Assembly (NCBI GenBank): GCA_018711625.1
Contig: DVID01000028.1
Coordinates: forward strand, 1-53,046
Source: Candidatus Limicola stercorigallinarum
GTDB taxonomy: Bacteria; Actinomycetota; Coriobacteriia; Coriobacteriales; Coriobacteriaceae
DNA length: 53,046 bases
Reading direction: 5' to 3'
Part shown: one piece after another, positions 6,088 to 52,158 of the stretch
How positions within the stretch are numbered: the first letter of the stretch is position 1
Layout: each line of letters opens with the position of its first letter
Notes under the pieces: model-generated
The model's input: only the letters and a program-made list of their open reading frames with translations
Told to the model about the DNA's origin: nothing
Databases searched by the model: none
Position numbers and translations under genes: made by a program

Positions 6088-9169
<3,082 letters not shown>

Positions 9170-9253
9170 TCAGAGTTAGAGCTGGCGAGGAGCAGGTGCG
9201 CCCGTCCGCGGGAGCCATGCACGGTGGTGGAGGTGCACGGCACCCCTTGGGTG

Positions 9254-10786
<1,533 letters not shown>

Positions 10787-30853: not shown

Positions 30854-30892
30854 GGATGGGTTGGATGGGACCCGTCCCCATCCAACCCATCC
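30854..30892 (+). repeat. Dispersed hairpin repeat, copy 1
   Basis: A 16-bp perfect stem (30854-30869 with 30877-30892) around a 7-base loop, containing GGGACCCGTCCCCATCC. It follows the tautomerase gene by about 40 bases and may also terminate it. Confidence 0.75.
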
Positions 30893-30945: not shown

Positions 30946-30974
30946 GGATGAAACGACCCCGTCCCCATTCATCC
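30946..30974 (+). repeat. Dispersed hairpin repeat, copy 2
   Basis: GGATGAA and TTCATCC arms enclose ACGACCCCGTCCCCA. This is a near-consensus copy, 54 bases after copy 1 and in the same orientation. Confidence 0.75.
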
Positions 30975-31323: not shown

Positions 31324-32475
31324 TTACGCCACGCCGTGCGGAAACACCTCCAAAAAGAGCTCGCGACGGCGTCGAATAAACGCCGCCGTCCTCCTCGCAA
31401 GCGGCAGGCCCAGCTTTCGTGCGATGGATTCCAACCTCAACTCAAGGCTCTCAAGCCGCGCCATGTGCTCATGGGTCACCTCAAACACCTGGAATCCCAT
31501 GGCCTCAAGGCCGGCCATCCTGCCGTTGCGCTCCTCAAAACCCATGCGGTCAGCATGAAAACGCTTGCCTTGGACCTCAATCACCCCGCGTTGCTCGGGA
31601 AAGAGCGCGTCGGCAACACAGGACTGCTGCCCGGCAATGCGGCGCGCGGGCTCGGAAAGCGCGACGCGCCGATTGAGGAAGGGCCGCGGCCATCCCTCGC
31701 CTCCCAGGCGTGCGCTCAGCCCATAGAACAGATAGAACTGACTTTCGAGCGGAGAACCCGAGCCATCATGCGCGCTGAGCACCGCACGACGCAACAGCCT
31801 GATTCCAGCGACCCCCTCCTTGCGAGCGCAGAAAGCAGAAAGTTTCTCGCAGCTGGTGAGGGGTGGCCGCTTCCAGAGACCGTCGAACACCCCACTGCGA
31901 TCCACACAGGGAGACCACGTGGAGGCGTCACTCCAGGCGTCGCCCAAAGGAAGCGGACGCCCGGCATCATCACTATACGCGGTGATAGGAAACGGTCTGG
32001 ATAACGACATCAAGTAGCTTTGCACCAGAGCGGACGTTGCGGCTTTCGCGCGTTCCGTTTTTGCAGAAACAGCGTAGATGCCGCATGCCTCGAGGCAACG
32101 CTGCACCAGCCGGACAAACGTCTCGGTACGTGCCAGGTCGAGCAGCGTGCGCTCAATGGAGAGCACAAACAGCCCGTTACCCAGATCAATAAGGTCCGCA
32201 GGGGACAGATCGCTTGGTAGAGGATGTGGCACGATGAGCTTCGAAGCTCGGGCTGACCTCAAACTATCCCCCATAAGATGAACGGGAACCGGAATACCCT
32301 TTAAATCAGTTGCAAGCCGTATAGCAATTGCCCGTGCGCCTTCATTCGCGTTGCTACGCGGAAACGTCACTATGCCGTGTTCATGAGATAAGGCCTCCTC
32401 CAACGTGGACAAATCACGAATAGCCGGAGGCGTAGCGTGGAGATACCACGCGGAAATGCCGCAGATGACAACCAT
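31324..32475 (-). CDS. Protein with C-terminal PD-(D/E)XK nuclease-like domain
   Basis: A 383-residue protein. The N-terminal 130 residues (ALSHEHGIVTFPRS to IERTLLDLARTE) resemble the layout of AbiEi-type/transcriptional-regulator-like proteins of abortive infection loci. The C-terminal part shows a restriction-like nuclease core: E244 (SPLESQFYLF), D289, and E300 with K304 in GVIEVQGKRFHADR, as in Vsr/DUF559-type folds. The function is probably DNA-directed defence or a self-standing toxin-like nuclease. The ATG at 32475 follows AAGGAG. It is a single gene between remnants and a palindromic element. Confidence 0.65.
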   Translation of the reverse strand: MVVICGISAWYLHATPPAIRDLSTLEEALSHEHGIVTFPRSNANEGARAIAIRLATDLKGIPVPVHLMGDSLRSARASKLIVPHPLPSDLSPADLIDLGNGLFVLSIERTLLDLARTETFVRLVQRCLEACGIYAVSAKTERAKAATSALVQSYLMSLSRPFPITAYSDDAGRPLPLGDAWSDASTWSPCVDRSGVFDGLWKRPPLTSCEKLSAFCARKEGVAGIRLLRRAVLSAHDGSGSPLESQFYLFYGLSARLGGEGWPRPFLNRRVALSEPARRIAGQQSCVADALFPEQRGVIEVQGKRFHADRMGFEERNGRMAGLEAMGFQVFEVTHEHMARLESLELRLESIARKLGLPLARRTAAFIRRRRELFLEVFPHGVA

Positions 32476-32743: not shown

Positions 32744-32886
32744 AAATGAACGCGGTTATCCGACGTTTTACGGACAGCTTCAAAACAGCAGCAAATGTGA
32801 CACCTCTTCTACCTGGGCTTTCTTTGCTGATAAAGGTCAATCTATTTGAAGCGTCGGGTCAAAACGTCGGATAACCGCGTTCATTT
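32744..32886. mobile_element. 143-bp palindromic element with 26-bp terminal inverted repeats
   Basis: Perfect 26-bp arms (32744-32769 and 32861-32886), beginning AAATGAACGCGGTTATCC, flank a 91-base core whose outer part is also imperfectly self-complementary (CTTCAAA with TTTGAAG, CAGCAAA with TTTGCTG). The core contains CTGGGCTTTCTTTGCTGAT, an apex also found in two other elements of this window. It encodes no protein. It looks like a MITE-type non-autonomous element or a structured RNA cassette. No clear target-site duplication was seen. Confidence 0.75.
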
Positions 32887-42596: not shown

Positions 42597-42875
42597 GTTA
42601 CTTGTAGGAGATAGAGCGAACCTGCCCTCTTCCATTGCCCGGGGGATTGCCATCCAACCCGCCGCCGATGGAAAAACGGAGTCGAGGTGTGACGCGCCGC
42701 GAAAAAACTATCTAATTTCAGTACCTAAATCACGATACGACACGTAGACCCCGCTTTCAGCCGATCGCCAACTGGGCTTTTGCTGATGAAATGAGGGGTC
42801 TACTTCAGGATGTTGGGAACATGGTTCTGAAATGGCACTATTATTTTCCCGGACCATGCCAAATCCGCCCAAAAA
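42597..42875. repeat. Long dispersed repeat with palindromic core, copy B
   Basis: About 280 bases clearly homologous to 46131-46397. The core (42715-42833) is a long imperfect palindrome: ATTTCAGTACC outer arm with GGTTCTGAAAT, GTAGACCCC (42744-42752) with GGGGTCTAC (42795-42803), and CAGC with GCTG around the apex CTGGGCTTTTGCTGATGAAA. No coding content. The apex is shared with the 32.7-kb element. Confidence 0.75.
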
Positions 42876-43080: not shown

Positions 43081-43109
43081 GAATGAGATGAACCTGTCGC
43101 CATCCATCC
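43081..43109 (+). repeat. Dispersed hairpin repeat, copy 3 (divergent)
   Basis: GAATGAGATGAACCTGTCGC then CATCCATCC matches the consensus with several changes, in the same orientation as the other copies. It lies between the decayed paralogue and the HxlR gene. Confidence 0.5.
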
Positions 43110-44637: not shown

Positions 44638-44989
44638 AAATCATCACTCCTACAGGGAATGAACAACACGTTGATGCGCGTGTACCCTACGCCAAGCAGA
44701 GTAGACAAGCTGCAAGAAAAACTTAGGAGCGGTGATGGTTCAAACGACCCCGTCCCCAAACAACCCATCGCAGGACGCCGGGGGCGTGCGTCATCGCTCA
44801 CGGACGAGCTTGACACGTTTGAGCCGAAAGACGTGGTCGGTACAACGAGTCAGATCATACTCGATGCGAAACCGCTTACCGGCACAGCAGTGAAGGCAAA
44901 CAGCGCCACAGCAGCCACCTCGCTGAGATACCCCCCCCCACAGCCGAGACACGCGTGAGCCCAAGTGAAAGCTACCACCTCTCATTGAT
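44638..44989. other. Intergenic stretch with repeat and possible gene remnant
   Basis: About 350 bases. It holds repeat copy 5 and a C9 tract (about 44931-44939). On the minus strand 44797-44880 reads KRFRIEYDLTRCTDHVFRLK, which looks like protein sequence but lacks a start, so it may be the end of a lost gene. Nothing else is recognised. Confidence 0.3.
44732..44769 (+). repeat. Dispersed hairpin repeat, copy 5
   Basis: GATGGTTCAAACGACCCC then GTCCCCAAACAACCCATC. The core CAAACGACCCCGTCCCC is near-consensus, and the flanks GATGG-TT and AA-CCCATC pair. Confidence 0.7.
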
Positions 44990-46130: not shown

Positions 46131-46397
46131 ACGTTGCTTATATGGGGTATAGCGAGCCCGCCCTCTTCCGTTGTCCAAGAAAATCGCCATCTGGCCGCCG
46201 TCGAAGGAGCATCGAGGGCAGCGGTGAGAAAAAACTATCTCATTTCAGTACCTAAATCGAAGGACGGTGTGTAGACCCCGTTTTCAGCCAATCGCCAACT
46301 GGGCTTTTGCTGATGAAATCAGGGGGCTACTTCAGGATGTTGGGAACATGGTACTGAAATGACGCATTTTTTTCTCGGACCGCGCCAAATCGACTAA
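46131..46397. repeat. Long dispersed repeat with palindromic core, copy C
   Basis: Homologous to 42597-42875 along its length. The core is bounded by perfect 13-bp arms TCATTTCAGTACC (46240-46252) and GGTACTGAAATGA (46350-46362). GTAGACCCC near the left and GGGGGCTAC on the right pair imperfectly. The apex CTGGGCTTTTGCTGATGAAA is identical to copy B. Confidence 0.75.
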
Positions 46398-46462: not shown

Positions 46463-46690
46463 TCAGCCTGCGAACGCTGCAAGCGCAGCGCCGCGGGCAT
46501 GAATGAGCGTCGTATCGAAGAGCGGCACCTTGGTGTCCTCGGGATGGACGAGGAGCCCAATCTCCGTGCAGCCAAGAATGACACCCTGTGGCCCGCGGGC
46601 TGCTAGGTCATCGACGATGCACAGGAACTCCGCACGGGACTCAGCGCGGATCCTGCCCCGGCACAACTCGTCAAAGATGAGACGGACCCG
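46463..46690 (-). pseudogene. C-terminal fragment of an aspartate/glutamate racemase
   Basis: The last 75 or so codons match the racemase C-terminus: RLIFDELCRGRIRAESRAEF, then GVILGCTEIGLLV (with the second catalytic Cys in GCTE) and VPLFDTTLIHARGAAL. The N-terminal two thirds, including the first catalytic cysteine, is absent. The break lies exactly at a dispersed hairpin repeat (46676-46702). The fragment cannot be active. Confidence 0.82.
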
Positions 46691-46702
46691 TCCCCAATCA
46701 TC
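46676..46702 (+). repeat. Dispersed hairpin repeat, copy 6
   Basis: GATGAGACGGACCCGTCCCC then AATCATC. It sits at the broken 5' end of the racemase fragment. Confidence 0.7.
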
Positions 46703-46714
46703 CAATTGCTCGCA

Positions 46715-47481: not shown

Positions 47482-47510
47482 GGATGAAATGAACCCATCC
47501 CCAATCATCC
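47482..47510 (+). repeat. Dispersed hairpin repeat, copy 7
   Basis: GGATGAAATGAACCCATCCC then CAATCATCC. Its right end supplies the stop codon of the small HTH gene on the minus strand. Confidence 0.7.
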
Positions 47511-52129: not shown

Positions 52130-52158
52130 GGATGAAACGACCCCGTCCCCATCTATCC
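52130..52158 (+). repeat. Dispersed hairpin repeat, copy 8
   Basis: GGATGAAACGACCCCGTCCC then CATCTATCC, the closest copy to consensus. It lies at the junction with the 52041-52129 remnant. Confidence 0.78.

Follow-up and report, generated by a model that had tools for sequence, protein, structure and literature searches.

The window, i.e., the whole stretch of 53,046 nucleotides that was analyzed, contains a palindromic element of 143 bp at 32744–32886 (145 bp if one flanking base per side is counted). It belongs to the family that we call A, and its plus strand was set by the central motif. The left arm AAATGAACGCGGTTATCCGACGTTTT (32744–32769) and the right arm AAAACGTCGGATAACCGCGTTCATTT (32861–32886) are perfect inverted repeats of each other, 26 bp each, and enclose 91 bp. 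They form the top-ranked inverted repeat pair of the window. An earlier sequence-only reading had described perfect 26-bp terminal repeats around a non-coding element, and both points were borne out: the two arms are fully complementary, and the element showed no coding capacity. The conserved, asymmetric central motif lies on the plus strand at 32808–32825 (approximately TCTACCTGGGCTTTCTTT in this copy; consensus CTACCTGCGSTTTTGTT). Two inner repeat positions are placed around the axis at 32815, at distances d = 25–34: the left one at 32781–32790 (consensus CCGAGTAGAC) and the right one at 32840–32849 (consensus GTCTACTCGG). Both are degenerate in the window copy.

The element is located in a 618-bp intergenic gap, and the genes on either side are divergent. 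To its left, on the minus strand, lies a gene for a protein of 383 residues (31324–32475), whose start codon is 268 bp away from the element and which we refer to as the partner gene; the earlier reading had overlooked it. Two further elements in the window, at 42702–42846 and 46229–46373 (both on the plus strand), have the same core and different arms, and were assigned to family B. They carry the same motif in the same register, which confirmed the apex that had been noted as common to the three elements. Elsewhere in the window, three copies of long direct repeats were found at 6095–10669, approximately 1.5–1.6 kb apart. They look like three tandem paralogous genes, and an encoded GGATAANQ-like motif presumably indicates glycoside hydrolase family 1.

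The search for more copies, which the earlier reading had proposed, yielded ten further full 143-bp copies on other contigs of the same genome. Thus, eleven full family-A copies were extracted, including the window one, all with the same end points and a length of exactly 143 bp. Where the DNA search aligned them end to end, they showed 69–72% identity to the window element. The same family-A element was observed at the end of contig C27 and at the start of C25 (L027 and L028), apparently due to an assembly break in the repeat. Including the two others in the window, about 50 elements in the genome have the core of the window element and different arms. A core of 88 nt, laid out in the consensus as CCGAGTAGAC...CTACCTGCGSTTTTGTT...GTCTACTCGG, is common to families A, B, and C and keeps one register in all of them. 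Invariant columns in the three families comprise a single A of the left inner repeat as well as A, C, G, and T columns within and around ACCTG..TTTT. RNAalifold predicted no pair and no common RNA structure in the core; therefore, the search model R1 was built on sequence only.

R1 matched the window element at 32772–32855 with 40.8 bits. In the whole genome, it matched 57 places at E ≤ 1, about 50 of them strongly, and added family D (arms AAAAACTTTTCGATTTGTTGCAGTTT) and family E. The core was present in 43 of the 60 related genomes, many of which are drafts, with up to 41 cores in a single relative. Only three records, all coriobacterial, were obtained by a strict-pattern contig scan: Enorma massiliensis, Collinsella provencensis, and one Coriobacteriaceae MAG. 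Viral contigs contained neither a core match nor a relative of the nuclease-like protein, and plasmids gave no match. Within family A, the mean identity was 0.58 for the core and 0.89 for the arms, in line with the diverged core noted earlier. This description holds within the family; between families, the short motifs of the core and their spacing are the sole shared part. Runs of T occur at the ends of many copies. Elements were also found adjacent to or abutting one another, often with different arms (L115, 1342–1412 and 1501–1580; L198, 7189–7257 and 7573–7627; G000:C43:5139–5424).

The arms are unrelated between families, yet they are centered on one core position. A palindrome was detected in 109 of 123 elements, and the distance between its axis and the ACCTG anchor was 4.0 nt in 95 of these 109 and 3.5 nt in 11, whatever the arm sequence. 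For 74 non-redundant copies, the pairing of symmetric positions in the arms (d = 45–72) was mostly 0.7–1.0 as compared with an expected value of approximately 0.3–0.5, giving z scores of 5–15. Partial symmetric pairing at d = 25–34 corresponded to CCGAGTAGAC and GTCTACTCGG, and axis-symmetric pairing was absent at d = 1–24 and 32–44 (given also as approximately 35–43). The constant axis position and the pairing at d = 45–72 indicate a fixed arm–core distance that does not depend on the arm sequence. In family A, arms of the same copy matched each other better than swapped arms (12 non-pairs versus 29 expected); this effect was weaker in family B and absent in family D.

The folding energy of the window element strand was −64.2 kcal/mol, relative to −31 ± 3.6 kcal/mol for dinucleotide shuffles (z = −9.4). 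Rfam revealed no family at the element. Selection on the fold, one of the two explanations offered from the sequence, thus holds for the arms, which covary within family A and across families; it does not extend to the core, where no common structure was obtained.

The ORF comparison around all elements repeatedly returned one protein family of approximately 385 residues, to which the partner protein belongs. Its C-terminal part resembles DUF559/Vsr-like domains of the PD-(D/E)XK type. With an E-value of 3e-4, a profile search matched the C-terminus to PDB 3r3p (‘Mobile intron protein’), an entry that we take to be I-Bth0305I, an EDxHD homing endonuclease. The Pfam profiles DUF559 and MTES_1575 were detected in 12 and 7 of 22 members, respectively. 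Positions S-P-x-E, D, E, and H do not vary among the members, and residues E244, D289, E300, and H307 of the partner protein are invariant among its relatives. For the N-terminal part, the profile searches pointed faintly to AbiEi. The window protein alone had no Pfam match, and its single-sequence AlphaFold2 model was discarded as too poor (pLDDT 41). Because of the remote profile matches, the missing Pfam match, and the unusable model, we label the protein DUF559/Vsr-like and probably a nuclease, a remote assignment with weak E-values. Homologues of the gene were identified in 48 of the 60 genomes; G004 contains neither a core nor a homologue.

The gene and the elements proved to be closely linked. 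A core was found within 600 bp of the gene at 18 of 30 homologue loci, as compared with 0.42 expected. A palindrome scan located palindromes of 100–200 bp near most of the remaining loci, and about one locus in ten had no element. In 40 kb of control loci, the scan returned three palindromes, each overlapping an R1 core match. The elements usually lie 70–300 bp from the gene ends. At seven loci (L199, L201, L202, L203, L206, L219, and L229), elements lie on either side of the gene. The arms of the two sides are clearly alike at six of these, the exception being L219, where the right-hand match is weak.

The genome contains six paralogues of the partner gene, and five of them adjoin their own palindrome. 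The window gene is paired with family A, the paralogue on C28 sits between two family-D copies, and those on C48, C6, and C26 each adjoin a palindrome of their own. The C48 palindrome has nine more copies, the C26 palindrome has three, and that of C6 shows scattered arm matches. No palindrome was found at the paralogue on C45, and no partner gene was found in this genome for families B, C, and E. The family-D partner gene (L229, G000:C28:7408–8559) contains one in-frame TGA and hence may be decaying, though D is one of the most numerous families. At the same locus, single degenerate D-arm-like sequences occur at 2917 and 1420, between the gene and the two flanking elements. For 20 distant homologues from families elsewhere in the order, inverted arms with 14 perfectly matching nt were present within 1 kb of 9, and shuffled sequences had none; at one of the distant loci, L268, weak core matches were seen on both sides. 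Protein and arm distances correlated weakly (Mantel test, p = 0.11 for the N-terminal and p = 0.007 for the C-terminal part).

Evidence of movement came from an element in G047. The joined flanks of this element are continuous in four sister species (G040, G048, G050, and G051), which show the empty site; the junction reads ...GCGTTAAATGG|AAACGCCGCC..., with one base differing in G050. The insertion consists of a 29-bp tail in addition to the palindrome. The target duplication check suggested earlier gave a negative result at this one site. The arms of the G047 element match palindromes near nuclease-like genes in G048 and G050. A dispersed repeat of the CCAGATAAAACCGACCAAAATAAACCTGTCCCTTTTTGG type lies next to the insertion site (query 158–209); it has many copies in G040, G046–G048, G050, and G051.

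Family B was also found nested in family D, in the order D left half, B, and D right arm, with at least six composite copies. In five relatives that have the neighboring HD gene, this gene showed no trace of the gene–element pair next to it; the gene order was also different there. Some elements are old, such as the one at G051:C11:49797, which occupies a single site across six species and speaks against constant movement. The proposal of recent mobility is thus supported at the level of the family, by the multiple copies, the empty site in four sister species, the nested families, and the HD-gene comparison; it does not cover the window copy.

With these results in hand, we describe the elements as a superfamily with matched partner genes, whose members have moved. 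We infer that the partner gene is the mover of the palindromes. On balance, we favor the explanation that the window element is a non-autonomous mobile palindrome of this Coriobacteriaceae superfamily, moved by a cognate DUF559/Vsr-like protein. Each family would have its own inverted arms of approximately 16–30 bp and a cognate gene for a DUF559/Vsr-like protein of approximately 385 residues, which would adjoin copies with the same arms or sit between them. The protein would act as a nuclease that, probably as a dimer, recognizes the two arms; these may be read along with the central motif, folded as a hairpin or cruciform. It would cut or nick at the arms, and DNA repair would then copy the element to new sites. 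The autonomous form would be the gene flanked by two elements, and the 143-bp copies would move in trans.

A more general and more tentative claim is that a DUF559/Vsr-like PD-(D/E)XK nuclease alone may mobilize short palindromes with enzyme-specific arms, as a separate transposition class that makes no target duplication. The pairing of families and genes suggests an undescribed bacterial route for spreading tiny parasitic DNA; no earlier description of these elements was found in the part of the literature that was searched. If the explanation is true, it provides a function for many uncharacterized DUF559-like proteins of Coriobacteriaceae and their relatives, adds one more type of nuclease to the enzymes spreading short repeats in bacteria, and accounts for much of the repeat content in one common gut bacterial group. 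The recognition can be tested directly, as many arm–nuclease pairs occur in nature.

The main rival explanation is that the partner protein functions chiefly as a DNA-binding regulator like AbiEi and the palindromes are its operators, serving its own gene first and then a regulon; in a variant, they are binding sites with a chromosomal role. AbiEi binds inverted repeats. The faint N-terminal AbiEi signal, the usual distance of the elements from the gene ends, the location of the window element between divergent genes, and the presence of at least one element at a site shared by six species are consistent with such a role. We nevertheless consider it unlikely, given that the gene can be flanked on both sides, nested families occur and each comprises many copies, the G047 insertion is species-specific, and the protein has a nuclease-like domain in which acidic residues are invariant. 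An identity as ordinary MITEs, moved by DDE transposases with the same terminal inverted repeats, appears improbable. It would account for inverted arms of approximately 26 bp, multiple copies, the lack of coding capacity, and the intergenic location in the window. However, no target duplication was seen at the empty site, a core common to families with unrelated arms would be unexpected, and the comparison of flanking ORFs led to the DUF559-like family with no evident transposase family. No DDE transposase bounded by these arms was evident in the flanks examined, for which Y1_Tnp was the sole transposase profile used.

If the element were maintained for its transcript, as a structured RNA or a bidirectional terminator, this could explain the very stable fold and the runs of T that end many copies. 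We give this reading little credence, considering that no Rfam family and no consensus RNA structure of the core was found, that the conservation consists of short sequence motifs at fixed spacing, and that no terminator is needed between divergent genes, where the window element is located. Finally, it is highly improbable that the elements are REPINs moved by the RAYT (Y1 HUH) transposase of the genome. One Y1_Tnp gene is indeed present, and the overall shape, a spacer between two inverted arms, is the same; the RAYT gene, however, has its own palindromes of 89 and 96 bp with other arms, and G011, G014, G015, G020, G021, G023, and G045 contain cores without a Y1_Tnp match. The identity was rejected on these two grounds, namely the other palindromes at the RAYT locus L252 and the cores in the seven genomes, and the REPIN/RAYT system coexists with the cored elements in the genome as a separate entity. 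A 29-nt GTCCCC hairpin repeat of the GGATGAAACGACCCCGTCCCCATTCATCC type occurs seven times in the window (30859–30887, 30946–30974, 43081–43109, 44737–44765, 46675–46703, 47482–47510, and 52130–52158). It partly resembles the palindromes flanking the RAYT gene (G000:C44:50047), and these repeats are probably the REPs of the genome.

Among known systems, bacterial MITEs, including Correia/NEMIS, are multicopy elements of 100–160 bp with terminal inverted repeats of approximately 26 bp, and the window elements resemble them in each of these respects. They differ in the lack of target duplication at the empty site, in that no transposase with these ends was found, and in the core shared between families. 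Compared with structured RNAs in Rfam, the element has neither a match to a curated family nor a covarying consensus structure in the core. AbiEi-type regulators of type IV toxin–antitoxin systems show a faint profile similarity to the N-terminal region of the partner protein, which is joined here to a nuclease-like domain. To the EDxHD homing endonucleases, DUF559, and MTES_1575, the similarity is remote and C-terminal (the E-value of 3e-4 and the Pfam profiles), with conserved E, D, E, and H. Homing endonucleases of this type have one homing site and cut its uninterrupted allele, whereas the partner gene is associated with dispersed palindromes; unlike them, it was seen with no intron or intein, and its protein has an additional N-terminal region of approximately 190 residues.

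The closest parallel in outline is the REPIN/RAYT system. Its dispersed short elements consist of two inverted arms separated by a spacer, with compensatory arm changes; copies flank a single gene, and each of several families of elements has an enzyme of its own (PMC3116915, PMC3733652). The present elements share the inverted arms, the spacer, and the compensatory changes, in outline only, as their arms are not REP hairpins; they also share the single flanked gene and the several families with their own enzymes. The partner proteins differ, a Y1 HUH transposase in that system and a DUF559/Vsr-like protein here. The GTAG (or CGTC) tag found at the foot of REPs is absent here, where the arm ends differ by family and have no common tag, and the conserved central motif common to families with unrelated arms occurs here only. 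The elements may thus be likened to REPIN/RAYT with an unrelated enzyme, since the putative nuclease would copy arm-bounded elements via DNA repair.
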